Source: Mucilaginibacter sp. OK283
Lineage (GTDB): Bacteria > Bacteroidota > Bacteroidia > Sphingobacteriales > Sphingobacteriaceae
Direction: 5' to 3'
Length of the DNA: 64,000 bases
Assembly (NCBI RefSeq): GCF_900110415.1
Contig: NZ_FODR01000004.1
Location: forward strand, 62,001 to 126,000
The notes below the pieces were generated by a model. The model made no database searches and had not been told where the DNA came from. It worked only from the letters and a program-made list of their open reading frames with translations. Below are positions 20,324-64,000 of the stretch, piece after piece (position 1 is the stretch's first letter; every line of letters starts with the position of its first letter). Both the position numbers and the translations under genes were made by a program.

Positions 20324-21000
20324 GTGTCACGAATTGTGTAGAGGTTCGCAGAACCACTACACAAGAGTTGTACAAAAGATGAGGGACGGCCCCTCGGAAC
20401 CGGCTTACAGGAGCGGGTTCCAAACCGCCGCTAAGCTGCTTTAGTTAAATGCTTTGGTAGTGAGCGTTAGCGGAAAAGGCATCATTAAAGGTGTCAGGTA
20501 AGTGTTAAGAAGGTGAACGCAAGTGAACCATCGATGAGGCATCGAAAGGATGAGACGATGTCAAAACCGGGCAACAGTAGCGGCCCAGGGATAAGCAAAG
20601 CGGTTACCTGTTTACTGGCTATGCGGCATCCGGTGTATAGATGGCACGAGCTTAACACAGGCTTTTGTATGGAACGTGAGAACCTGTCGCCATCATGTTA
20701 AGGGAAAACCTCAAGTCGGTGCACCGGCAAGAGGGAAAGTACCGATGGATGGCACGGGGGCGGAACATCCCGTATTAGTGATGAAGTTCCTGTAATGGGA
20801 ATGGAGCGAAGGGGATGTATTAACACGCTTTCTATATCCGGCGTAAAACTGAGCGATCAGGAGGTAGCAAAGGATGAAAGCAAAACACGCGGGGTCTAGG
20901 ACCGACTCCGGTGTAATGGTTAATAAGAGCCGTATGATGGGAGACTATCAAGTACGGTTCTATGAGGGACTTGGGGTGAAATTCCCCGGGTCTACTCGAC
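20324..21000 (+). mobile_element. ORF-less group II intron
   Basis: This gene-free stretch has the hallmarks of a bacterial group II intron RNA. A 34-nt domain V is present (20927-20960) with an AGC triad and a GAGA tetraloop. Domain VI follows, with a candidate bulged branch A seven bases from the 3' end, and the segment ends CTACTCGAC, fitting the AY rule at 21000. The 5' end reads GTGTCACG directly after the susD stop and resembles the GUGYG start, but this boundary is less certain; a start at the hairpin near 20336 is possible. No reverse transcriptase/maturase gene lies in domain IV, so it would need a maturase supplied from elsewhere for mobility. The exon-binding pairings could not be settled by eye. 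Confidence 0.82.
20927..20960 (+). ncRNA. Group II intron domain V
   Basis: Lower stem GAGCCGTA pairs with TACGGTTC (one G-U wobble opposite the AGC triad). The upper stem GATGG pairs with CTATC and closes a GAGA (GNRA) loop, and the CAAG bulge region lies between the stems. All 34 nt match the catalytic hairpin layout with no breaking change, so the intron core could still be active. Confidence 0.85.
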
Positions 21001-47527: not shown

Positions 47528-49408
47528 CTACAATAAGATTTGACTGACTTCAAAATTGAAAAACCCGGTTTTTTCATAATGATAGATGAGAATTTGGTTA
47601 TCAGGGATCAATGTCAGGGAAAATGCCTTTTCATCCGTTTTTGTTATTTGTGGGTTTAATAACAATATCTGTTCGCGGCCCAGAATAATCTCTTCGTTTA
47701 ATAACTTAATGGGAACCGGAATTTTTGATTCAATAGATAGGTAAGTCCCCGGCTCCATTTCCTTTAATCCCTCAATCATTTTAGAATAATAGATTTGGTC
47801 AGCTATCGTCAACCCTTCAGGATCCTTAACTGAGTGATACCCGTATTTAACTAGTGCAGAGAGTTTATTGAAGGCTTTTTTATCCTCATCCGTAAAGTCA
47901 TAAATGGAAACCGGCGGCAATTTTACCTTGAATTTTTTTTCGATTTGTACGAGTGAGAGGTAACGCTCCATTAATTTTTTGAAACGGCCGGCCTCCTCGT
48001 GGTACTGGAACTGTTTAGCCTGCACAGGATGGCCGGCTTGATGTATCTCGATTTTTTTGCCGAAAAAGAGGTAATACATGGCTTGAAAATAGTTTATGTA
48101 GATCTGCTTCGCCGGCGCGTGTTCTGGTTCTTCTGTGCTGAACTCTATTTTTATGCCGCCATCCTCCTGTATTTCCAGGTCGAACGCAATGGTAAAGCCT
48201 TGATAATCGAGTTTTATAAGCAGCTTACCGGGAATGCCGCTGAAAACTTCGTAACATACATTTTCAATGGCCAGCTTGTCCTCGGGAAAAACGATTTTAA
48301 CCTTTCCTTTCCTGGATTCGTGCATGATGTTGAACTGTGCGATGTCGTCGATGCCCATAAATTTGAAATCCTCAATCAGGAAGGAGAATTCATTTAATTG
48401 TGCCGCGGTGAATTTGAAAACGGGCGATGCATAACTATTTGAAAATTGTTTGTAGCTGTCAATAAAGGCCGTGTCGGTTGATGCGAAATTTATGGTGTGT
48501 TTGGTCGGCCCTGATACCTTCTGCAATGACACGATCTCGGTCATTTCCTTCGTCGCTTCTATTTTAACCTGCATATCGAATCCAGTGATAAAATCCTGGG
48601 CGGTCTGCGTATCTGTAAACCCTTGTTTATGGTCGGCAACCACGTTTTCTTTAATGTTGGCAATCAACCCGGTTACAAAATCCTCTCCATAAAGTTCAAT
48701 ATGCCCGATGCCTAACTTCTTTAGCCTTTTTTTCTTCAATGCAGGCAGGGGAGGGCCGACCATAAACCTTTTTTTGGTCTTGCTTTTCAGCTTGCTTTCA
48801 ATATGGTCGAAGTCAGCCCAGATGTTTTCGTCTTCATAGCCGTAACCCAGGAAGAGTACATGGTGCAAGGAAATTTCGTGAATAACAGCAGCCCAAAAAG
48901 GGTCTTTAAAATTACGATTATACATTTTCGAATAATCGGTAGCAGTTACTACCAGACTTTTACCATTCTTGATATCACCATGTATCTTGTAAATCTTTAC
49001 TTTGGCCTGCGATGTCCCAATCACATCGTTGTCCGTGGTAAGTGCCGCTGTACGCGGAGGGAAATTGTTTTCCAGTAGCTCATCATAATTTGTGGTAATG
49101 ATTCGCTTAAAGTGGGAGACAAGACCCAGTTGTTGATGGACATGTTCTGCGATGGGCGGCGTTTTAAATCGTTCTTGGATAACTCTTTCCAAAAATGCAC
49201 GACCGTTTTGCACAACAAAATCTTCTGAAAAGTGAATAAGGTCCTTTGAAAGGTCAAGTTCTTTCTGTTTTGCTGGAGAAACAGCGTTATTGAGTAAAGT
49301 CTTTATTTCATTTACAGAAGGGAACCCCGCATAAAAAGAGAACCCAGACCCCACCCACAAAAGTACTTGGTCCTTGCGGATAAGTTCATAAAGGTCATTT
49401 ATCGGCAT
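47528..49408 (-). CDS. SIR2-domain protein, probable anti-phage NADase
   Basis: Protein of 626 residues. The N-terminal SIR2-like domain (about 1-255) has the NAD-binding motif WVGSGFSFYAGFP (18-30), the ITTNYDE motif with Asn107 (about 104-110), the catalytic-site histidine His143 in KIHGD and LGYGYEDENIW (about 187-197). The remaining about 370 residues are mixed alpha/beta with no family that I know. Stand-alone SIR2 proteins of this size (for example the DSR group) deplete NAD after sensing phage proteins; the C-terminus is usually the sensor. Neighbours are unknown or mobile-element genes, which fits defence. A toxin or NADase role is inferred, not shown. Confidence 0.82.
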   Translation of the reverse strand: MPINDLYELIRKDQVLLWVGSGFSFYAGFPSVNEIKTLLNNAVSPAKQKELDLSKDLIHFSEDFVVQNGRAFLERVIQERFKTPPIAEHVHQQLGLVSHFKRIITTNYDELLENNFPPRTAALTTDNDVIGTSQAKVKIYKIHGDIKNGKSLVVTATDYSKMYNRNFKDPFWAAVIHEISLHHVLFLGYGYEDENIWADFDHIESKLKSKTKKRFMVGPPLPALKKKRLKKLGIGHIELYGEDFVTGLIANIKENVVADHKQGFTDTQTAQDFITGFDMQVKIEATKEMTEIVSLQKVSGPTKHTINFASTDTAFIDSYKQFSNSYASPVFKFTAAQLNEFSFLIEDFKFMGIDDIAQFNIMHESRKGKVKIVFPEDKLAIENVCYEVFSGIPGKLLIKLDYQGFTIAFDLEIQEDGGIKIEFSTEEPEHAPAKQIYINYFQAMYYLFFGKKIEIHQAGHPVQAKQFQYHEEAGRFKKLMERYLSLVQIEKKFKVKLPPVSIYDFTDEDKKAFNKLSALVKYGYHSVKDPEGLTIADQIYYSKMIEGLKEMEPGTYLSIESKIPVPIKLLNEEIILGREQILLLNPQITKTDEKAFSLTLIPDNQILIYHYEKTGFFNFEVSQILL

Positions 49409-51057: not shown

Positions 51058-51306
51058 ATGAGCATATTATCTAATCATACGGAAAGACGGGCTTTAAAGG
51101 GGTTAGCTAACACGCTCCGCTTTTTTGACCATACCGACCTTTTGCTGATGAGTGCAGAAGATGCACAGAAAGCAAGGCAAGCGGAAAATACCTTAAGGTC
51201 GATCATTGAAAATAACGGGTATACGACCCGATATAAAAAGGGCAGGGGAACAAAAATGTATAAGAACAGGAAAAACAAGCAATCACATGAAAACGAACTT
51301 TTTTGA
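51058..51306 (+). CDS. Unknown 82-residue protein of the PRTRC locus
   Basis: Small soluble protein with a helical N-terminal two-thirds (ERRALKGLANTLRFFDHTDL, AEDAQKARQAENTLRSIIEN) and a basic tail (YKKGRGTKMYKNRKNKQ). It could bind nucleic acid, but no known motif is present. It starts 36 bp after the YubB-like gene, and its last 20 bp overlap the start of the PRTRC protein E gene, so it belongs to the same transcript. Family not recognised. Confidence 0.65.
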   Translation: MSILSNHTERRALKGLANTLRFFDHTDLLLMSAEDAQKARQAENTLRSIIENNGYTTRYKKGRGTKMYKNRKNKQSHENELF

Positions 51307-51898
51307 ACATATCGCAGGTTTAGGCATCACTGCCGACCTGAAAATAGCAGTCAGCTTTGGGGCAAACGGAAATTTGGTGGTATCGGTGATGGTCGCCAAT
51401 GATAAGCTGTCGGACAAAGCAGGGAAAATTATTCAGCCTATGATTTTAAAGGGAAACGCCGGGGAACTGGATGAGGGCTTTTTTGAGGCAGTCAGCACAC
51501 CCTTAAAACAGACTTTCCAATTATTTGCCAATATGGATGCTTACCAAAAGGGACTGGACGATGCCAAACTGGCCTCTAAACAGGAACAGGACAAAAAGAA
51601 CAAAAATGGCAAGGCCAAAACAGGGGCCGAGGAAAGTGATGAGGATAATGAATCAAATAGCGAAAACCTGTTCAGCAATAAACAGGCGGAGGAACAGCAG
51701 AAAGCGGATAGGAAAAAAGTCTATGATGAGGCCATGCTGCAAATCGCTGAACTGGCCAAAACTTTTAAGTATGCGGAAGCCATCGCATTACTTCCATCGG
51801 TTGACGAGTACCCCGAAAAAGTAAAGGAACTGAAAGAAAAAGCGGATGAACTGGCCAAGCGCAAAAAAATCTATGATACCATCAGCCAGGATTTATAA
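51287..51898 (+). CDS. PRTRC system protein E
   Basis: Protein of 203 residues from the ATG at MKTNFFEHIAGLGITADLK; the longer open frame upstream overlaps another gene and is rejected. The N-terminal part (about 1-95) matches PRTRC protein E (VSFGANGNLVVSVMVANDK, then GNAGELDEGFFEAVSTPL). The middle is a charged Lys/Glu/Asp-rich linker (about 100-150), and the C-terminus is helical and coiled-coil-like. PRTRC stands for ParB-related, ThiF-related cassette, a module of unknown function found on plasmids and integrative elements. It overlaps the previous gene by 20 bp. Confidence 0.85.
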   Translation: MKTNFFEHIAGLGITADLKIAVSFGANGNLVVSVMVANDKLSDKAGKIIQPMILKGNAGELDEGFFEAVSTPLKQTFQLFANMDAYQKGLDDAKLASKQEQDKKNKNGKAKTGAEESDEDNESNSENLFSNKQAEEQQKADRKKVYDEAMLQIAELAKTFKYAEAIALLPSVDEYPEKVKELKEKADELAKRKKIYDTISQDL

Positions 51899-51916
51899 AA
51901 CTTAAACCTACCAAAC

Positions 51917-52132
51917 ATGATAGTAAATACATTAAGCAGGATATTCCTGCATAGTGATAACGGGCAGGATGTCCGTTTGGCCGACCCCGGTGCTGATTTC
52001 AGTACAGTAGCAGTGCTGAACTTTTACGCCAACACTTACCCCATCCTGACCACCGCCAAAATTACCGGCCCGGAGATTAAGGAAGATGAGGTACAGTACC
52101 GCTTTGAAACCACCATGGGAACGAAAGGATGA
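51917..52132 (+). CDS. PRTRC system protein C
   Basis: Small protein of 71 residues, matching the compact size of PRTRC protein C. Recognisable parts are the opening IFLHSDNGQDVRLADPGADF and LNFYANTYPILTTAKITGPE, with a predicted ubiquitin- or small-beta-fold character. In the cassette, protein C sits beside a ThiF/E1-like protein, so a carrier-like role has been speculated for the family, but it is untested. Its stop codon overlaps the ATG of a 59-residue frame. Confidence 0.85.
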   Translation: MIVNTLSRIFLHSDNGQDVRLADPGADFSTVAVLNFYANTYPILTTAKITGPEIKEDEVQYRFETTMGTKG

Positions 52133-52308
52133 ACAGGAATCCAAAACCAATCCGGAATATTAAAATCGATAAGGAAGCAGATCAATGGAGAATACAGCAA
52201 TCATTCGGGGCGTTCGTCGCCAAACTAAACCGCTTGCCGGACGCAGGGGAGGTACAACGCAACCCGCTTCGAAGCGCACCGCAAGGCATAGCCGGAATGG
52301 TTTTCTAA
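52129..52308 (+). CDS. Possible 59-residue protein, or N-terminal part of the next gene
   Basis: The frame starts at an ATG that overlaps the protein C stop (ATGA) and reads naturally (IKIDKEADQWRIQQSFGAFV, then AKLNRLPDAGEVQRNPLRSA). It stops exactly where the larger next frame becomes protein-like. The next frame overlaps this stretch with an Arg/Thr/Gly-rich sequence that looks like a shadow. A -1 shift at GGTTTTCTAA would join the two as ...GMVFLNYRFLPFY. So this is either a small coupled gene or the true N-terminus of the next protein after a frameshift. Confidence 0.45.
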   Translation: MNRNPKPIRNIKIDKEADQWRIQQSFGAFVAKLNRLPDAGEVQRNPLRSAPQGIAGMVF

Positions 52309-53303
52309 ATTATCGTTTCCTGCCGTTTTATACCTATAACGGCGACAGGAGCAGAGCGGAAATGGAATATTTCCGCTCCCTCTCCAATATCTGTACATAC
52401 TATGATTTGAACGTACCTGATGTGTCTTCTCTTACTTTTCCGCAGAATATTTTCAGTTCATGGGAAAATGTAGCCGGACAAATCAAAGCCATCGATAAAA
52501 AAATGGATTGTATCATCGTGCAGGATGTTGACCACGTAGCAACACTGGCAACCCTGAAACGATTGAACACGGGAAGTACCTTATTCTATGTGCCGGTAAG
52601 ACCCTTATGGCATTGGGGACAGGTGGCTGAACAAGAGCATATAGCTGAATTGGTTACCGCACTGTTCGCTTACCTGTATCAAATCGTCAAAATGCCTTTT
52701 TATGCAGAGGATAATAGTTACCTCAAATACCAGTATGATACCTTATTTGAATGGGTAACCGAGCAGGTAGACGAGGACGATAAGGATGAAAAAGAGTTCA
52801 AAGAATTGGAACTGGATACGCTCTACCTCATGCAAAATGCGGGCATTCATATTCTAAGATCAATCAGCGATCCCAATTGGATGGAACGCATGGAAAGTGT
52901 GGTTATAGCCTATGCCGATTTACCGGAAAAGGATTTGGAATGGGCGCTTTTAGCAATTGATTTTCTGCAATTGTATCAGCAGTATCCTGACCGCTCTGTT
53001 TTTGACCACATCCGGCCTGACCTCTACCACCTTGACGAAGAGGATCGTATACAGGCAGAGGAATACATTTCTTTCTATTGGAGCGGAAACGATTGCTTTA
53101 CCGACACCCTCGATGATTTGATCAATACGAATTTTCAGGAAATAGCTGTCATGGATGAACCCATAGCAGTGCAGATGTTCGATACCCTGAACGAAACAGT
53201 ACCGGAAGATTTTGACTTCGAGACCCGGCTGTTCGACCTCCTCAATAAATTATCAACCCTTTTACACCAATACGACCATGAAGAACGTGAGCCAACAGTT
53301 TAA
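52185..53303 (+). CDS. PRTRC-locus protein, possibly protein F
   Basis: Acidic soluble protein of up to 372 residues. The region from about residue 43 (FLPFYTYNGDRSRAEMEYF) onward looks like real protein, with a central helical part and many Asp/Glu residues; there are no membrane segments. Its first 40 residues are probably not translated in this frame, because another frame covers the same bases, so the true start may be the ATG at about 52362 or a frameshift from 52129. Its place between proteins C and B suggests the PRTRC protein F position, but I could not confirm the family. Its end overlaps protein B by 26 bp. Confidence 0.7.
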   Translation: MENTAIIRGVRRQTKPLAGRRGGTTQPASKRTARHSRNGFLNYRFLPFYTYNGDRSRAEMEYFRSLSNICTYYDLNVPDVSSLTFPQNIFSSWENVAGQIKAIDKKMDCIIVQDVDHVATLATLKRLNTGSTLFYVPVRPLWHWGQVAEQEHIAELVTALFAYLYQIVKMPFYAEDNSYLKYQYDTLFEWVTEQVDEDDKDEKEFKELELDTLYLMQNAGIHILRSISDPNWMERMESVVIAYADLPEKDLEWALLAIDFLQLYQQYPDRSVFDHIRPDLYHLDEEDRIQAEEYISFYWSGNDCFTDTLDDLINTNFQEIAVMDEPIAVQMFDTLNETVPEDFDFETRLFDLLNKLSTLLHQYDHEEREPTV

Positions 53304-54027
53304 CGACCAGTACATGCCTATCAAAGCATTATTGATATACCAATCGGTTGGGCAGGAGGAAGATGGTAATTACCATCACAGGGAAAACAGGCAGGAAGTT
53401 TACGTCGAAAGCTATGATATCGGGAAACAGGGTAACCCCATCAACGCGCACCCGCTCACCATTCCTGAAATGCAATCCCTGAACGAATTATTGCAAAGTA
53501 CGCAGGAACTGAAAGGTGCCTATTTGAAAAGCAGGGGAGTACTGCCCGGTAAGGTGATATATATCAACCCGCTGACCAATGGTTTTGCAGTATGGTATAC
53601 TCCACCGCAAGAAATGAATTTGTTTTTTGTGGACAGCCTCGGCATTCCGTCAGGTAAAGCGCATATCCCGGCTATGGTATGGAAAGCCTCCAAAGACAGG
53701 CTCGATGTGTTTGCCATTAAGGGTAAAAGTAAGCCGACAGTCAAAACCGCCCTTTATCATGCACCTTACTTCAATATTCACTATAACGGTAATGTATGCA
53801 TGGGAACGGTTGTCATTAACATCGACCGCAACACCGCCCTTGAAGATTTCATGGCGCAATGGGAAAGCTATTTCTTTAACAGCTATTTCAGCCATACCAT
53901 CCACAGCGACAGCAGTACCAAAATAAATATCGTTCAGCTTTGGCAGGAGCAGGTCGCTACAGGCAGAGACTTTCCGCAGGAAGTTTTAGTCAAATCAAAT
54001 ACCTCATTAAACCATCTTATCCGATGA
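53278..54027 (+). CDS. PRTRC system protein B
   Basis: Protein of 249 residues from the ATG at MKNVSQQFNDQYMPIKALL; a longer frame overlapping the upstream gene is rejected. The core has the family pattern (VYVESYDIGKQGNPINAHPL in part, GAYLKSRGVLPGKVIYINP, and YNGNVCMGTV with a conserved Cys). Protein B has no known catalytic activity. It overlaps the upstream gene by 26 bp and the ThiF gene by 4 bp (ATGA), so synthesis of the three is probably coupled. Confidence 0.87.
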   Translation: MKNVSQQFNDQYMPIKALLIYQSVGQEEDGNYHHRENRQEVYVESYDIGKQGNPINAHPLTIPEMQSLNELLQSTQELKGAYLKSRGVLPGKVIYINPLTNGFAVWYTPPQEMNLFFVDSLGIPSGKAHIPAMVWKASKDRLDVFAIKGKSKPTVKTALYHAPYFNIHYNGNVCMGTVVINIDRNTALEDFMAQWESYFFNSYFSHTIHSDSSTKINIVQLWQEQVATGRDFPQEVLVKSNTSLNHLIR

Positions 54028-54845
54028 AAAAACTCAAAAAACTAATAGCAGTTAAACCTGCCGTGCATATCGTTGAAAAAGAATTGTTACAACCTTATAA
54101 CCCCGTCTCTATTAACCTGATTGGGGCAGGAGGTACGGGAAGCCAGTTACTGACCGCCCTCGGACGCATGAACCACGCCCTTATAGCCCTGAACCATCCC
54201 GGCCTGATGGTGACCGTATTTGATGATGATAAGGTAGACAGGGCTAACCTTGGCAGGCAGCTTTTTACCACTGCTGAATTAGGGTTATATAAATCGGTGG
54301 CACTGGTTAACCGTATCAACCGTTTCTTCGGCACGAACTGGAAAGCGGTGGCCGAAAAATATGATAAGGATTATTGTTCTTTGGAAAAGGGAGTGGCGAT
54401 TATAACCCTTTCCTGCGTGGACACCGTGAACGCCCGTTTTGAAATAGCGGAGATATTGGAAACCTATCACCGTCATATGCCGAATCACCGCAACAGGCCG
54501 GTATATTGGATGGATTTTGGCAACAGCAGGGATACCGGGCAGGTTTTAATAGCTACAGTGGGCGCAGTAAAACAGCCGGAATCTAAAAAGTACAACCCTG
54601 TTGGCAAATTACCTTTGGTTACCGAGGAATTTAAAGAGCTGTTGATTAGTTCCGAACAGGCAGACAATACACCATCATGTTCTTTGGCGGAAGCCCTGAC
54701 CAAACAGGATTTGTTCATCAACTCCGCACTGGCTAATCTCGGTGCATCGCTTTTATGGTCTTTGTTTCGGGAGGGCATGTTGTTCAATCGTGGTTTTTTT
54801 CTCAATCTAAAAGATTTCAGGACACAACCACTCAAAGTGGCTTAA
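54024..54845 (+). CDS. PRTRC system ThiF/E1-like protein
   Basis: Protein of 273 residues with the Rossmann-type adenylation fold of ThiF/MoeB/E1 enzymes. The nucleotide loop is LIGAGGTGSQLL (GAGGTGS at 34-40), followed by VTVFDDDKVDRANLGRQLF (about 68-86), the typical aspartate and arginine-containing adenylate motif. E1-like proteins adenylate the C-terminus of a ubiquitin-like carrier; the carrier here might be protein C, which is inference. A catalytic Cys candidate is in CSLAEALTKQ. It overlaps protein B at its start. A Mov34/JAB protease (PRTRC protein A) and the ParB-like member of the full cassette are not seen nearby. Confidence 0.9.
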   Translation: MKKLKKLIAVKPAVHIVEKELLQPYNPVSINLIGAGGTGSQLLTALGRMNHALIALNHPGLMVTVFDDDKVDRANLGRQLFTTAELGLYKSVALVNRINRFFGTNWKAVAEKYDKDYCSLEKGVAIITLSCVDTVNARFEIAEILETYHRHMPNHRNRPVYWMDFGNSRDTGQVLIATVGAVKQPESKKYNPVGKLPLVTEEFKELLISSEQADNTPSCSLAEALTKQDLFINSALANLGASLLWSLFREGMLFNRGFFLNLKDFRTQPLKVA

Positions 54846-55846: not shown

Positions 55847-58800
55847 GTGACGGAAAAGATGATCAGAGACAGTTATTACCTGGGAATAGGAATTGATGAA
55901 TACCCAGGTGATAAGCGGTTAAACAACGCAGTAGGCGATGTTACGCGTATTCGGCGTTTGTTAGAAGACAAATACGGATTTAAGTCTCTACGTGATCCTC
56001 TATTGAACGGAGATGCCACTCGAGATAATATCTTAAACGAGCTAAATAATCTTTGCAATTTTATTGGCAAAAATGACAATGTGATCGTCTACTTTGCGGG
56101 TCATGGCAATAAGGCCCCTACAAGTGAGGCCGGCTATTGGGAACCAATCGACTTTGATCCTCATAAAATATCAACGCGGATTGACAATTCTTCAGTACTG
56201 GATTTACTGGAGGGCATAGATGCACAGCATATTCTTTTAATTTCAGATTCCTGCTTTTCAGGTACTTTTTTAACCCGTGACCGATCCGGGACTTCAGAAA
56301 CCGATCATGATTATCTGGATAGCCTCAAGTCTGGATGGATTTTAGTTTCCGGTGGCTTGGAAAACGTCGGCGACGGAGTCTCGGGGAAGGGGAGTACATT
56401 TAATCAAACCATTTGCCGTGTCCTTCAAAGAAACTCAAAGCCAAGCATGGCTTCTGGTGACCTGTTTGAAGAGGTCATCAGGATAATGAAGGAAAGCACA
56501 TTTCAAAGTCCCGGGGCTGCTCCGATCAAGAGAGACAGTATCCATCAGGGAGGGCAAATGATATTTTTTCAAAATTCTGATGAATCAGAAGATGTGCCTG
56601 ATTTTCCAATACCGGAGGTTGTAATTCAAAATGCCTATTTACCCAGAACACTGACGAACTATTCGGATAAGCGACCGGTACTAAGTTTTTTTTATGAGCC
56701 TGAAGTGGGAAATGTTATTTTGGATGACCTGATTAATACTCAAAAAAGGATCGTAATATTAGGCGGGGCTGGCTCAGGAAAATCGATCGAAATGAGTAAA
56801 GCAATGGAAAGGGTCAAGGCTTCAGATAAAGGATTAGTTCCATTGTTTAGGAGGCTTAACAATTATACTGATGGTGACCTCGACCAGTACTTACCCGCAG
56901 CGTGGAAACAGGTTCCCGTTGAGAGGCTGGTCATCTTACTGGACGGACTTGATGAAATACAACCTCAATTTGTAAACACAGCGCTTAGAAAAATAAGTGA
57001 TTTTGGCGAAAGATATCCGGATATCACTATTGTCATCAGTTCACGGACCAATTTTTACGAGTTGCCTTCAAAATCTTTTTCGGGTACACTGAGCGGATAC
57101 CTGGTTTACTTATTGAATGATATTAATCTTCATGCTATCAAAAATTACGTTCAGGCAATGGGGCTGGATGGTGAAAGATTTGTTAAAGAAGTTCAGGATC
57201 ATAACTACCTTGATCTGGTCCAAAAGCCATACTTTCTGAATATACTTTTTAATTACTTTCATAAAAACAATGACCTGAATGTCCGGCGATCTGATGTTTT
57301 AAACGATGCGCTCGACCATTACTTCGAGGCTAACCGGGAGCAATATAAAAACGCAGATATGCCCCTGCCAAACGAGGCGCTTGTTCCACTTGCTGAGCGG
57401 ATAGCATTTGTAATGGAGTTATTGGGAAAAAACTTCATTACCGACGATGAAATTAGTAGGATTATTACACAAGAAAAAGAGTACCGTTCCCTTCGTTATC
57501 TGCCGGCTTTCAAATATGACCAGGAAACGGAACAATGGTACTTCGAACATAATAATATTCAGGAGTACCTGGCCTCAAGAATATTGAAAAAACAGAATTT
57601 CGACAAAATGGTCGATTTGTTAACACTAACTTCTTCTGGTATTTCTAAAATTAAGCCGACTTGGGTAAACACGCTGTCCTTCATGATCAGTATTGGCCAG
57701 GATGAAGAAATAAAAGGAATATTAGATTGGCTCATTAAAAATGAACCAGAAATTTTAGTACGATTCGAGCCGGACAGGCTTCCACAAACGACCCGTATTG
57801 CGATCTTTAAACAAATATTTGAATATTATCGAAGCCTTCAGATATGGCTCAGCTCCAATAAGTTTTCTGATAAGGAACTTGCGCGCTTTGGTCAGTCTGA
57901 GGAAACATTGAATTATTTATTAGCAATATTGACTGACGACGATTCAACCAGATTCGATGTGCTCAATACAGCCCATGTTCTCCGAAGAATCGAAATATCA
58001 AAATTCAAAGGATATCAGAAATCTATCCGTGGTTTAATTTTGGGGCTACTCGAAAGGAAAGACCTTAATGAAAGTGACCAATACAGCCTCATCGGTTCAC
58101 TAGCTGATCTTGGGTTCGCCGATGATGATACAATAGGGTATCTGATTTCAAAATATGCTAACCGGGAAAACCAATATTTAAGGGCCGGGCTTTATAAGAT
58201 TATCCGAAGATCTGAGAATCTGGATAAATATGCCGATGTTTTTATTACGGGACTTCGTTTTAATCATTTTAACTATCAAAGTAAAGATCGTGACACGGTT
58301 ACCTTGATGGATGAACTGTCACAGCTAAAGGCTGCGGTGAAACAATTCAATAAACCCGGGTCAATAAGAAAATTGCTTGAAGCGGTTACTGTCGACATTA
58401 ATTCTGTACATCAATTCTTTGCTGAATTCAAAGAGGAAATGCAGACCATATTGGAACACATTTTTGTTGCATACGAGCAGGATTCATCCCTGTTTTCGCT
58501 TATTGCAACATTTTTCGCGCGTCATGCTACGGAGCAGCGAAGCCAGTTAGTTCCAACACTGCTGGAAATGATCGATGCACATGGAATAAGGTGGGAAACT
58601 CTGCAATTTGTGTTAAATGGCAAAGGGCTTCGTGAATATGAGATATCTTCCGCAGCTGCGGCATTAATCAATGAACAGACGATTGAACAGTTGATCACCC
58701 AATATAAAAAGGGCACAATCGAAAGTTTACAGTTGCAGCAAATATTTAATAATTTCAAATGGCGGCAGACCGACTGGCCCGATTACGATGAGCGATTGTC

Positions 58801-60202
58801 ACTCTTTAAAAAATCACTTCAAGGGGCAACTGATATCATATTCCCTCAGGAACCAGAAGTTGACAGAGCCGCACTGTTCAAAAAAAATGCTCAGAGAGAG
58901 TTCGATTTGCTATTCAATCCGGATAACATAAAAGCCGAAGTCAAAGCAGTTTTTAAGTATTTGGAAAAAGACACCGTAACTTATGACGACCTTCATCGCT
59001 ATAAAAACGGGGAGTATGTTGATATCAGAGATAAATTCAGTAGTATTTCCGCTGAACTTTTTCGAAATTTTACTTATGGCAATGCTTCCATATCTCAAGC
59101 AACTATTTTAGAATGGATTGATGAAAGTTCTCAATTTGAGAATTTTAGGATCGATGCCATCAAATCGAGGCTTTTAGCGCTGCCGGAACTTGAAATCAAT
59201 AAAGAGCAGTTATCTTATATTCAGAGTTGGGTGCAGCGAAATGAAGATACTAATATTTATACGTGGTATTTTATCAGGAGGTTTAAGTTTACACTTCCAG
59301 AAGAAAGGTATCTGGAATTTACCCGGTATTTTAGTCCCTCAGAGGAACGAGATTTACAGCAAGGCGGTTTTATTGAACTGTTAACCGGTTTTGTTTCTAA
59401 AAATAAACTTGAAGATAAAGTACGTTCAAATCTTAAAAGTGGCGACTTGGATTTTGTTGTCTGGACTGCTAACGCAGGATATGCGTTGAGAAATGATCTC
59501 ACAGATACTTTTAATGGCATACTGGATTTTATCGAAACAACAAGCCAAAGCTGGCACAGCTATAGAGATCTTCTTAAATTTTGGTTTGAAAAGACAGGCG
59601 ATATTGACAGGTTGATAAAAATAATTAAGGAGACTGAAAACCAATCGTTGAAAGAGGACTCGATTCGTTTACTACTGGATTCGGAAAAAGCTGATGGATT
59701 TCTCATTTCTTATTTCCAGGAACTATTGAGTAAACAGGAAATTTCTGAACCGGAGAAATTGACAGGGGCGAATTACCTGATCAAACTTGGGATATTAGAT
59801 GGTTTTGAATTTATAGCAGATGCCTTTCTCAAAGCTCCTTCCCCTGATTTTGATTTTAGGGAAAATTTTCGGAATATATCCAAGATCATTGATCCCGCAT
59901 CGCTGGATACTCTTATGAAATTGTTATTCTTTGCAAAAAAAACTGAGTATAAAAACGATGTCTTTAATGATCTTGAGTCTTTAATATTAGAAACCCTGTT
60001 TAACATCGGCATTCAATCGAAAGAACATTTCAAAGCGGTCAAAGATCATCTTCAGCAATTCATTTCAAGTTATAAAAATGAAATCCCTCATATCAATTTC
60101 CTGGAATTTACAATTACCAGGATTGAAGATCAGCTGAACGTTAAGTTATCACGGGAATTTGGCTTGGAAGATGCTGTAAAATTGTTGAATTCGTTAAATT
60201 AG
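55847..60202 (+). CDS. Caspase-like protease fused to NACHT ATPase and helical repeats (putative anti-phage effector)
   Basis: A 1451-residue single-chain protein. Residues about 8-240 form a caspase-like (peptidase C14) domain that starts YYLGIGIDEYPGDKRLNNAVG; the catalytic His86 (YFAGHG) and Cys136 (SDSCFSG) are both kept. A NACHT NTPase follows, with Walker A GGAGSGKS (306-313) and Walker B VILLDGLDE (362-370), and helices up to about 600. Residues about 600-1451 are long helical repeats of HEAT/TPR-like character, probably the sensor. Bacterial NACHT proteins act in phage defence; binding of a phage trigger should assemble the ATPase and activate the protease. The start may be the GTG used here or an ATG four codons later. 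No separate substrate gene is evident. Confidence 0.88.
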   Translation: MTEKMIRDSYYLGIGIDEYPGDKRLNNAVGDVTRIRRLLEDKYGFKSLRDPLLNGDATRDNILNELNNLCNFIGKNDNVIVYFAGHGNKAPTSEAGYWEPIDFDPHKISTRIDNSSVLDLLEGIDAQHILLISDSCFSGTFLTRDRSGTSETDHDYLDSLKSGWILVSGGLENVGDGVSGKGSTFNQTICRVLQRNSKPSMASGDLFEEVIRIMKESTFQSPGAAPIKRDSIHQGGQMIFFQNSDESEDVPDFPIPEVVIQNAYLPRTLTNYSDKRPVLSFFYEPEVGNVILDDLINTQKRIVILGGAGSGKSIEMSKAMERVKASDKGLVPLFRRLNNYTDGDLDQYLPAAWKQVPVERLVILLDGLDEIQPQFVNTALRKISDFGERYPDITIVISSRTNFYELPSKSFSGTLSGYLVYLLNDINLHAIKNYVQAMGLDGERFVKEVQDHNYLDLVQKPYFLNILFNYFHKNNDLNVRRSDVLNDALDHYFEANREQYKNADMPLPNEALVPLAERIAFVMELLGKNFITDDEISRIITQEKEYRSLRYLPAFKYDQETEQWYFEHNNIQEYLASRILKKQNFDKMVDLLTLTSSGISKIKPTWVNTLSFMISIGQDEEIKGILDWLIKNEPEILVRFEPDRLPQTTRIAIFKQIFEYYRSLQIWLSSNKFSDKELARFGQSEETLNYLLAILTDDDSTRFDVLNTAHVLRRIEISKFKGYQKSIRGLILGLLERKDLNESDQYSLIGSLADLGFADDDTIGYLISKYANRENQYLRAGLYKIIRRSENLDKYADVFITGLRFNHFNYQSKDRDTVTLMDELSQLKAAVKQFNKPGSIRKLLEAVTVDINSVHQFFAEFKEEMQTILEHIFVAYEQDSSLFSLIATFFARHATEQRSQLVPTLLEMIDAHGIRWETLQFVLNGKGLREYEISSAAAALINEQTIEQLITQYKKGTIESLQLQQIFNNFKWRQTDWPDYDERLSLFKKSLQGATDIIFPQEPEVDRAALFKKNAQREFDLLFNPDNIKAEVKAVFKYLEKDTVTYDDLHRYKNGEYVDIRDKFSSISAELFRNFTYGNASISQATILEWIDESSQFENFRIDAIKSRLLALPELEINKEQLSYIQSWVQRNEDTNIYTWYFIRRFKFTLPEERYLEFTRYFSPSEERDLQQGGFIELLTGFVSKNKLEDKVRSNLKSGDLDFVVWTANAGYALRNDLTDTFNGILDFIETTSQSWHSYRDLLKFWFEKTGDIDRLIKIIKETENQSLKEDSIRLLLDSEKADGFLISYFQELLSKQEISEPEKLTGANYLIKLGILDGFEFIADAFLKAPSPDFDFRENFRNISKIIDPASLDTLMKLLFFAKKTEYKNDVFNDLESLILETLFNIGIQSKEHFKAVKDHLQQFISSYKNEIPHINFLEFTITRIEDQLNVKLSREFGLEDAVKLLNSLN

Positions 60203-60664
60203 AATAGTTGCCAAGTTTGACGGATTAATTTCAGCACAGTAATTTTTATGTTGATAGAAGATTTAATCAGCACCTAAGTCATTTTGTTTATTGTCGTGTA
60301 GGATATACTCATCCAAATTTTTAGGTTGTTTGCTCTCTTTTACCAAGTTCTTACTCTGATGCTACCCAGAATTAATTTGTAATTGATTTATGTCTCGGTG
60401 AAAATCGATTCCTAACTTATTGAAACATCGGATAAGGCGTTTATGGAAAAATACAAATCTTCGGTAGTGGGCTAGGAATTAACATTTGTCAATAACGTAA
60501 CAGTCATGGCGGAGTGGGTTAAAAATATGACAATATATTTTACGGAAACATAAGAATCAAAAAATAACTGTAAATATTGGCACATATTTATATCTTAGTC
60601 AGGTCAGAATAGTTTGCCATTTTCAATCGCTCCTAAACAATCACACCTAAACAATTACTACTGC
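60203..60664 (+). other. Intergenic region upstream of the DUF262 genes
   Basis: About 460 bp, A/T-rich and without a supported gene. The first DUF262 frame can be extended to a TTG at 60614, but the ATG at 60665 starts the conserved domain better. No terminator for the caspase-NACHT gene was seen. Confidence 0.45.
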
Positions 60665-62473
60665 ATGGCAGAACTTGTATTTAGTATCAACAATATTTTT
60701 AATGCTGAAAACAGTGACGGCTGTCTTGAACAACACAGCGCCGATCGTTATCACATACCAGCTTATCAGCGCGGCTATAAATGGGGATCTCTTCACGAAA
60801 CCGATCCCGTGCGCATGCTACTTAAAGACCTCTATGAAGCTTTTGAGGCCGCAAAAAAAAATCCGGATAAAGAATATTATCTCCAATACATTACGGTAAA
60901 ACGGTCTGCAAATTACGTTCACCTTGAGGTTATCGATGGTCAACAAAGACTCACTACGTTATCCATTCTGTTATCTGTGCTTAGTCGGAAAGTAAAAGGA
61001 ACGGTAAATATTGCGATCAATAAACTGGACTATGCGATCAGGGAAAATTTTTTTGTGCGCCATATTTATCCGGCTAATGCTTTAACGGTATTACTCAATA
61101 CAAATTGGGATAAGGACAAGGGTATTGTTTTGTCGGAAGAGGACCAAGGTATCGCAAAACATAGGTTATATAATAATCAGGATGTATTCTATATAACGGA
61201 AGCCGCTAAAGCGATGGATAATTTCATGTCCGTGCAAATGCAGGAGGAGGAACTACCTAATTTCTACCATTTCGTCCTTAACAACGTTTTCCTGATTGTC
61301 AATGCTGTAGAACCATATGTGTCAAGCGAACAGGTTTTCAGTAACCTGAACAGCAATAAAGTTCCACTTACGGAGCCCGAATTGATAAAAGCATTAATAC
61401 TAACAAAAGCGGCAAGAGAAAAAGATAATAGGCACCAGAGCAGGCATTTTAAGGAGATTCTGGAGTTGCGTGCATCAATGGGAAGGACATGGGATGAAAT
61501 TTCAAGATGGGTAAATAACAAGGCTGTCAAAAGCTTTTATTTTGAGGAGACTGATGGAATGAAGGGCCTACTTAGTCTTGTAGCTGTGAAAATGGGCTAT
61601 CATCCCGATAAAGTAGATCAGGGCAGTCACCACCCCTTGTTTAACTATTTTCACAAGCAGTCAAATATCTCAGGGATATTTGATAAGCTCAAGAAATATT
61701 ATCAGATCCTGAAAGATTGGTATGAAAATGATAAAAAATATAACCTGTTGGGGTTCGTACTTTTTGCAAAGGGCAGCAGCCATAGAAAGAATAAAACCAA
61801 TCTCATCGCCAATTTGCTGGATAGAGACCAATTCAGTTTTTCTGAAAAATTAACATCAATAAGAAATGAACTAATAACGGTCGATTTTGACAAACTATTG
61901 TATGATGGCACGTCCCCAAATGATGAAATTCACAGGCTCCTCCTTGCAATAAATGTTTTTAATACGGACGCCAGCAAAATAACTCGATTTGATTTTTTCG
62001 CCTTCAAGCGTTCCGGCTGGACGCTTGAACATATCTTCTCACAGCGGCCAGAAGGAAAAGGCAAGATACTGACAGCCGACGATAAGACATGTATTATAAA
62101 TATCTTGGGGGCTTCAATGACGGAAAAAATTCAAAAAACTCTCGACAAAAAAACAAGAACGGATGCTGAAAAGGAAATCTATTACGAAGCATTGCAAAAA
62201 CATAATCTCATAAACAGTATCGGAAATATGACGCTGCTGACCGGTGAAGATAATAGTTCAAACGGCAACGGTCAGTTCGATGCAAAACGAAGCAATATCC
62301 TGGAATTGGTTCGCGGCGGGAGTTTTGTGCCAAAACATACTTTTGAGGTGTTCAGTAAGCTTATCCTGCCTAATCCAGGAGATCTCAGAAACTGGGGGAG
62401 AACCAATATCGATGAGCACGCGGATCATATCAAAAAAACAATTGACAAGCTAAAACAGAACATCTACGCATGA
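60665..62473 (+). CDS. DUF262/DUF1524 GmrSD-like protein
   Basis: Protein of 602 residues from the ATG at MAELVFSINN. The N-terminal DUF262 domain has IPAYQRGYKW (31-40) and DGQQRLTT (91-98), the ParB-like NTP-binding motif. The C-terminal DUF1524 domain has LEHIFSQ with His456 and GNMTLLTGEDNSSNG (about 522-536) followed by KRSNIL, the HNH-type nuclease pattern. In GmrSD, a type IV restriction enzyme, the GmrS half hydrolyses NTP and the GmrD half cuts modified phage DNA. Both parts are in one chain here. Its stop overlaps the start of a second DUF262 gene by 4 bp, so the two are made together. Confidence 0.9.
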   Translation: MAELVFSINNIFNAENSDGCLEQHSADRYHIPAYQRGYKWGSLHETDPVRMLLKDLYEAFEAAKKNPDKEYYLQYITVKRSANYVHLEVIDGQQRLTTLSILLSVLSRKVKGTVNIAINKLDYAIRENFFVRHIYPANALTVLLNTNWDKDKGIVLSEEDQGIAKHRLYNNQDVFYITEAAKAMDNFMSVQMQEEELPNFYHFVLNNVFLIVNAVEPYVSSEQVFSNLNSNKVPLTEPELIKALILTKAAREKDNRHQSRHFKEILELRASMGRTWDEISRWVNNKAVKSFYFEETDGMKGLLSLVAVKMGYHPDKVDQGSHHPLFNYFHKQSNISGIFDKLKKYYQILKDWYENDKKYNLLGFVLFAKGSSHRKNKTNLIANLLDRDQFSFSEKLTSIRNELITVDFDKLLYDGTSPNDEIHRLLLAINVFNTDASKITRFDFFAFKRSGWTLEHIFSQRPEGKGKILTADDKTCIINILGASMTEKIQKTLDKKTRTDAEKEIYYEALQKHNLINSIGNMTLLTGEDNSSNGNGQFDAKRSNILELVRGGSFVPKHTFEVFSKLILPNPGDLRNWGRTNIDEHADHIKKTIDKLKQNIYA

Positions 62474-64000
62474 AGCCCGGGAAATACTCGCTAAAAGAAT
62501 TATTTAAAGACCGAAATGTAGAGCGGATACTTATTCCTGAAATTCAGCGCGACTACGTATGGGGTAATGATCAGGTTAATGGCCTGCTTGGCTCTATCAT
62601 TGATGAATATCGGAAATTTAGGAAAGCAGATTATCACATAGAGGTGTTGACAGAGGATCAGCAATTGCAACATGCTTTCTATGATTATTATAAAAAACAG
62701 AAGCACGTTGCCAATATTGGCTTTATATATGCATATGATGATCCTCATTATATCGGCAACTATTTTTTGATTGACGGGCAGCAACGTTTAACGACAACGT
62801 ATCTGTTATTACTTGCACTTTCTATCCTTTCCGGCAGAACGGAAGAATTTAAAAAGGTTTATTTTTCGGGTAAAAAATTAAAATTAGATTATAAAGTACG
62901 TGAGTCAGCACACGATTTTTTCACGAGTTTTGTTGAATTTGCTTTGGAAGGAAAGAATGTTGAACTTACTAAAAGGCAAAATTGGTATCTTGATGATTAT
63001 GAAAATGACACCACGATCAGCGCTATTTACAATAACTATTTAACCATTTTTCGGTATATTCAGGTGTCAACGGCGTCTGAGCTTTTTGATTATGTTCAGG
63101 ATTATGTGGAGTTCTGGTATTTTGATACAAATATCAGCGAACAGGGTGAGGAACTTTATATCTATATGAATGCCCGCGGCGAACAGATGCAAAGTAACGA
63201 AAACCTGAAAGCCAATCTTTTGGCAAAAATAAAAGATGACAATCAGAAAGACGAGGCAGGGAAAACATGGGAAGACTGGCAGGATTACTTTTGGATAGGC
63301 CGGGGCGAGAATGAAAATGCTGATAAAGGTTTTAATGAATTTTTGAATGCCATTGCAGGTTTTGAAAATTACAAGTTAACTCGTGCTAAACTCACTATTT
63401 CTAAATCTAAGTTTGACGAAGGGGGGATAAAAACAGCTACTTTAGTGGAATACCTTGATCTAACTATTATAGCTGAATATTTTTCAGCCTTTACAAATGT
63501 GATAGAAATAGCGGAGCAATGCAAGCTGGATTATGACTATCATGCCTGGGTTGAGAATTTTAAGCAAGACTGGTGGGACCTTATTAATAATAATAAGACC
63601 AATTGGTTCGCAGATCTTGATGATTCCAATCGCGGGCAGGAGCATAGCCGCATGGTATATTTCTGGTCCATTATCTATTATTTCAAAGATAAAAATCCGG
63701 ATAAAATGGAGGCAATCCGCCTGCTTCGATTGTATTTTGTCAGGTACTACAATTATGATAGGCAGGTTAAAAACATTATATCAAGAATTGATTTTTATAA
63801 CCAACATCGTGTATTAAGCGATAATTTAAACACAAATTCTAACGACGAAGTACTTAAACACCAATTTTATGCCACGCTAACCGAACAGGAAACCAAAAAG
63901 TACGAGGCACTTATTTGGCAGATCGAAGATCATCCCTTCAATCTTGAAGGGGAAGGTTTGGAGGCTGTTAATGTTTCCCATTTGGTAGATTTCTCTGCCA
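62470..64000 (+). CDS. Second DUF262-domain protein (3' end beyond window)
   Basis: Open from an ATG overlapping the previous stop (ATGA) to the end of the window, giving 510 residues with no stop. The N-terminal DUF262 domain reads IPEIQRDYVWG (about 22-32) and DGQQRLTTTYLL (102-113). About 280 residues later come YMNARGEQMQSNENLKANL and a helical region, and near the end IEDHPFNLEGEGL. No HNH motif is visible so far; it may lie beyond the window or be absent. A tandem pair of DUF262 proteins with different C-termini suggests a two-subunit complex, of which only the first shows a nuclease signature. Function in DNA restriction is inferred from the family. Confidence 0.87.
   Translation, partial: MKPGKYSLKELFKDRNVERILIPEIQRDYVWGNDQVNGLLGSIIDEYRKFRKADYHIEVLTEDQQLQHAFYDYYKKQKHVANIGFIYAYDDPHYIGNYFLIDGQQRLTTTYLLLLALSILSGRTEEFKKVYFSGKKLKLDYKVRESAHDFFTSFVEFALEGKNVELTKRQNWYLDDYENDTTISAIYNNYLTIFRYIQVSTASELFDYVQDYVEFWYFDTNISEQGEELYIYMNARGEQMQSNENLKANLLAKIKDDNQKDEAGKTWEDWQDYFWIGRGENENADKGFNEFLNAIAGFENYKLTRAKLTISKSKFDEGGIKTATLVEYLDLTIIAEYFSAFTNVIEIAEQCKLDYDYHAWVENFKQDWWDLINNNKTNWFADLDDSNRGQEHSRMVYFWSIIYYFKDKNPDKMEAIRLLRLYFVRYYNYDRQVKNIISRIDFYNQHRVLSDNLNTNSNDEVLKHQFYATLTEQETKKYEALIWQIEDHPFNLEGEGLEAVNVSHLVDFSA

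Follow-up and report, generated by a model that had tools for sequence, protein, structure and literature searches.

Two neighbouring genes, A and B, at the right-hand end of the window (the whole 64,000-nucleotide stretch of Mucilaginibacter sp. OK283 DNA that was analysed) each encode a protein with a DUF262 domain. The source contig was read past window position 64000, and B was followed to its stop. The features of the pair are as follows.

60665..62473, + strand: gene A, GrwA-like, 602 aa, DUF262 NTPase-like domain plus His-Me (HNH, DUF1524) nuclease (open reading frame, translation, Pfam)
60737..61399, + strand: GmrSD_N/DUF262 domain of A, residues 25-245, with YQR 34-36, DGQQR 91-95 and F225-N229 (Pfam and alignment)
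61994..62431, + strand: GmrSD_C/DUF1524 His-Me finger of A, residues 444-589, with E455-H456, N521 and N530 (Pfam, alignment, AlphaFold2)
62470..62473, + strand: ATGA overlap, the start of B on the stop of A (sequence)
62470..64000 in the window, stop at 64617, + strand: gene B, GrwB-like, 715 aa, DUF262 without nuclease
62491..63219, + strand: GmrSD_N/DUF262 domain of B, residues 8-250, with Q26-R27, D102-R106 (DGQQR) and N234 (Pfam and alignment)
63367..64000, on to about 64614, + strand: C-terminal module of B, residues 300-715, mostly helical, then alpha/beta (AlphaFold2, conservation)

An alternative TTG start at 60614 would lengthen A to 619 aa. Across the whole 7.19 Mb genome, GmrSD_N matched A and B only, and searches of the pair with PADLOC and NCBIfam returned partial DUF262 matches or none. 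A first-pass annotation of the sequence had proposed tandem DUF262 genes with an ATGA overlap, and this is borne out by the A stop at 62473, the B start at 62470 and the Pfam matches to GmrSD_N in both proteins.

Our analyses have shown that A joins GmrSD_N (E 1.3e-26, residues 25-245) to GmrSD_C (E 1.5e-9, residues 444-589), and the DUF1524 HNH half that had been read in the first gene is thus confirmed by Pfam. When 74 A proteins were aligned, Y34, Q35, R36, D91-R95 and F225 were unchanged and N229 was kept in at least 90%. The nuclease residues E455, H456, G520, N521, N530 and K541 were unchanged as well, and GmrSD_C was detected in 73 of the 74. In the AlphaFold2 model of A (mean pLDDT 91.9), H456 ends strand 453-456, N521 lies just ahead of strand 522-525 and N530 falls within helix 527-533; as modelled, the C-terminus of A has the beta-beta-alpha layout of a His-Me finger. 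The best PDB matches, near full length, were DndI (9jfl) and SspE (7drr, 6jiv), and BrxU was a weak match in a sequence-profile search. SspE and DndI are phosphorothioate-sensing DUF262-DUF1524 nucleases with the domain order of A; however, they are single proteins coupled to phosphorothioation genes, and none of the genes flanking the pair was recognised as an ssp or dnd phosphorothioation gene. BrxU and the single-chain GmrSD (Eco94GmrSD) are type IV restriction enzymes that also combine DUF262 with DUF1524, but they consist of one polypeptide without a second DUF262 partner, whereas A always has a partner gene.

The absence of a nuclease from the second gene, first read from the part of B within the window, holds over all 715 residues to the stop at 64617. 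Full-length B matched GmrSD_N alone (E 2e-24, residues 8-250), and GmrSD_C was found by Pfam in none of 65 B homologues. A hidden nuclease in B was ruled out by this Pfam survey of 65 homologues, by profile comparison with A and by a fold search. Homology between the two proteins is confined to the N-terminal third of B, with a profile-profile alignment limited to residues 12-307 of A and 10-292 of B. Within this part, Q26, R27, D102-R106, R144, D180, G226, E227, N234, G237 and E244 were invariant in 75 B proteins, and B carries YxxxN (Y230-N234) in place of FxxxN. Since QR, DGQQR and the other motif residues do not vary in these 75 proteins, we consider the nucleotide-pocket motif of B to be retained.

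Beyond its DUF262 domain, B possesses a long C-terminal module that is a conserved feature of the family. The middle of the AlphaFold2 model of B (mean pLDDT 89.4) is helical and its C-terminal part is mixed, and R417, E460, K463, E479, W483 and E486 are conserved in the C-terminal half. In a PDB fold search with this model, only two DUF262 proteins, SspE and DndI, matched significantly; the match to BrxU fell short of significance, and the C-terminal 400 or so residues found no PDB fold match. A second group of pairs, in Bacteroidota and Gammaproteobacteria, has a larger B (741-874 aa); profile comparison aligned B with this family over 596 columns (E 4.4e-51), and the C-terminal module is common to both. 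Because the C-terminal half is conserved and common to the larger-B group, B is an old separate family and not a recent truncated copy of A. A search of viral contigs revealed no relative of B, and phage records queried with the Marinobacter B held no homologue. A viral fold library gave convincing matches to the B model only among DUF262 proteins of giant viruses (Harvfovirus, Yasminevirus).

We scanned 84,980 species genomes with four aligned B proteins as the query and analysed the best 80 B-like loci. In all 80 an A-type nuclease gene lay directly upstream of B on the same strand; the survey of other genomes that had been suggested for the pair and its order therefore found both to be fixed among these loci. 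The hosts are mainly Bacteroidota, together with Gammaproteobacteria (Modicisalibacter, Marinobacter, Glaciecola), Campylobacterota (Aliarcobacter), Planctomycetota, Ignavibacteria, Spirochaetes (Treponema) and a Gallicola bin. Among 81 pairs the A-B offset was most often -4, which is the 4-base overlap of the window, and in a plasmid collection searched with separate A- and B-type queries an A-like gene stood upstream in 16 of the 17 records with a B-like gene. The distance matrices of A and B correlated with r = 0.88, against at most 0.08 in 2000 shuffles, and the nearest neighbour was identical for A and B at 52 of 76 loci, an agreement that could partly stem from joint inheritance or transfer of linked genes and not from physical contact. 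That A and B form one functional unit is strongly supported, and we hold it to be nearly certain.

The setting of the pair varies between genomes. At least one homologue of the type I restriction genes hsdM, hsdS and hsdR lies beside it at 21 of the 80 loci, about a quarter, and homologues of all three flank it in at least 14, with hsdM and hsdS upstream and hsdR downstream (loci L046, L049, L053, L056, L062 and L063 among others). A WYL-type regulator was found nearby in 16 of the 80 and a DnaQ-like exonuclease in 10, with Pfam annotation of the hsd, WYL and DnaQ neighbours run on one example of each. The Mucilaginibacter pair lies outside any type I operon, and its neighbours in the window include a caspase-NACHT-like protein, a macro-domain protein, PRTRC genes and a SIR2 protein. 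Gene C (64670-67030, +), read in the direction of B, begins 52 bases beyond it and encodes 786 aa with no Pfam match; it is possibly nitrilase-like, judging by eye from an E, K, C motif. Homologues of C occur on plasmids of Rhizobium, Agrobacterium, Deinococcus and others.

Several two-protein systems bear on these observations. GrwAB of the V. cholerae WASA lineage, published in 2025, is a modification-dependent system in which both genes are required; it acts against phages with 7-deazaguanine or with hydroxymethylcytosine that carries a sugar, and escapers map to DpdA, an enzyme that modifies DNA (PMC12137116). Its defence is lost when either DGQQR arginine is mutated, or when GrwA H431, N521 or N530 is (PMC12137116). 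Like the A-B pair, GrwAB has the nuclease gene (DUF262-DUF1524) first, and QR, DGQQR and F/YxxxN motifs are present in both proteins. GrwB resembles B in having DUF262 at the N-terminus and then a long stretch of unknown domains, and in both GrwA and A the second nuclease Asn lies 9 residues past the first (N521/N530 in each). The two systems differ in the spacing from nuclease His to Asn, which is 65 residues in A versus 90 in GrwA, and in the position of the DGQQR arginines, R95 (A) and R106 (B) compared with R81 and R86 in GrwAB. In motif spacing, the larger-B pair family (A6) is closer to GrwAB than B of the window is. Kinship with GrwAB was judged by layout, motifs, motif spacing and this larger-B family, not by sequence alignment; searches for GrwAB itself in plasmid and phage records, in E. 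coli genomes and in two samples of gammaproteobacterial genomes turned up related pairs, none of which had exactly the GrwAB residue numbers.

TgvAB, encoded on VPI-2 of V. cholerae, likewise pairs two proteins with DUF262, of which one ends in a DUF1524 domain, and both are needed (PMC11411939). Some members of the A-B family lie between hsdS and hsdR, an embedding that is also known for tgvAB. In contrast, the nuclease-less TgvA comes first, whereas the window and all 80 relatives have the nuclease gene in front, and outside DUF262 GrwB and TgvA are regarded in the literature as distinct. GmrSD-ECOR17 of E. coli (GmrS1/GmrSD2) restricts T-even phages with two GmrS-like proteins, one with HNH and both required, and is described as strongly diverged from other GmrSD proteins (PMC12373910). 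Its gene order is also the reverse of A-B, with GmrS1 upstream of GmrSD2. Our searches found reversed-order pairs as well, with a DUF262 protein of 444-558 aa first and a nuclease protein of about 640-680 aa second; these are a separate group with the TgvAB/GmrSD-ECOR17 layout. The statement in the first-pass annotation that one DUF262 NTPase serves each nuclease is right for GmrSD and SspE, but it overlooks the systems with two DUF262 proteins (PMC12137116, PMC11411939, PMC12373910).

Taken together, these comparisons suggest, with a probability that we put at roughly 80%, that A and B make up a GrwAB-type antiphage enzyme, a type IV restriction system of two proteins that depends on DNA modification and has one His-Me nuclease gated by two DUF262 domains. 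The A-B pair is a mainly Bacteroidota branch of an already published two-protein type and extends a known system to Bacteroidota. The first-pass annotation had arrived at a two-component restriction complex with one nuclease, and it is very probably right: the proposal is well supported because pairing and order are conserved, the trees match, the motifs are intact and the relatives need both proteins, although it is not new. It was to be abandoned if B had a DUF1524 domain of its own and the pair was not conserved elsewhere, and neither turned out to be so. From GrwAB, TgvAB, GmrSD-ECOR17 and SspE we infer NTP hydrolysis, dependence on modification, formation of a complex and the need for both proteins. 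In the mechanism that we propose, A and B would assemble via or alongside their DUF262 domains, and both domains would bind and hydrolyse NTP (DGQQR) on meeting non-host DNA with a modified base. The resulting conformational change would free the C-terminal His-Me nuclease of A, the only one in the complex, and the DNA would be nicked or cut. The long C-terminal module of B might help to read the substrate, grip the DNA or control A.

Could B instead be a regulator, an antitoxin-like restrainer that silences a toxic A until infection and has no part in reading DNA? GmrSD-ECOR17 is toxic when both of its genes are induced, hence a nuclease of this kind needs control (PMC12373910), and the obligate pairing of A with B, like the translational overlap that favours a fixed stoichiometry, would suit such a role. 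However, that toxicity was reported for the pair. In GrwAB and TgvAB, moreover, the nuclease partner alone gives no protection and defence is lost with the DGQQR arginine of its partner (PMC12137116, PMC11411939), and B keeps its NTPase motif without variation, as an active subunit would. We therefore regard a mere restrainer as unlikely.

Readings in which A and B are not a unit of two are far less probable. DUF262 genes tend to cluster with other DUF262 genes (PMC4619093) and the region of the window is rich in conflict-related genes, as might be expected if two independent single-protein DUF262 systems had become chance neighbours in a defence island. This explanation can hardly be reconciled with adjacency and order kept in 80 of 80 loci across phyla and with distance matrices that agree, and we consider it the least probable of all. 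The proximity and shared strand of gene C would fit a larger unit in which A, B and C act together, but no C homologue lies near any other A-B pair, and in the three plasmid regions inspected its homologues stood without a DUF262 gene beside them; a three-gene unit is thus very improbable, too.

Within the two-protein restriction enzyme that we favour, the part played by B is less clear. The first-pass annotation gave it the recognition of a DNA modification. We treat B as reader only as a guess, and a tentative one, because the relatives need both DUF262 domains and what the partner does is called unclear: the studies of GrwAB and TgvAB left open the reason for a second DUF262 protein in some GmrSD-like enzymes (PMC12137116, PMC11411939). 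More doubtful still is the narrower idea that specificity lies in the C-terminal module of B, as a DNA-modification reader of a new kind that directs a shared A nuclease. If the module is a reader, exchanging B would redirect the enzyme to another phage modification; where a pair lies within a type I operon, the module could instead be adapted to the adjacent restriction-modification system. With 80 strictly paired loci in several phyla, the alignment is deep enough to choose interface or reader residues in B and to predict the complex, and E460, K463, E479, W483 and E486 are candidates for such residues.

Some further observations concern the surroundings of the pair. Just upstream, at 55847-60202 (+), lies a probable suicide-type defence gene. 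Its product of 1451 aa begins with a caspase (C14) domain, includes a NACHT-like NTPase and shows weak similarity to HyoA and EruA, two antiphage NACHT proteins. A 626-aa SIR2-domain protein encoded at 47528-49408 (-) partially matches ThsA and other SIR2 defence proteins. The PRTRC genes (PRTRC E, Prok-E2 family D, ThiF) occupy 51206-54845 (+), and genes of this kind are typical of plasmid-like elements that have integrated. At 20381-21000 (+), two Rfam group II intron matches (the D1-D4 part and the 3' domain) are separated by about 420 bases, suggesting a small group II intron that is too short for a long reading frame.
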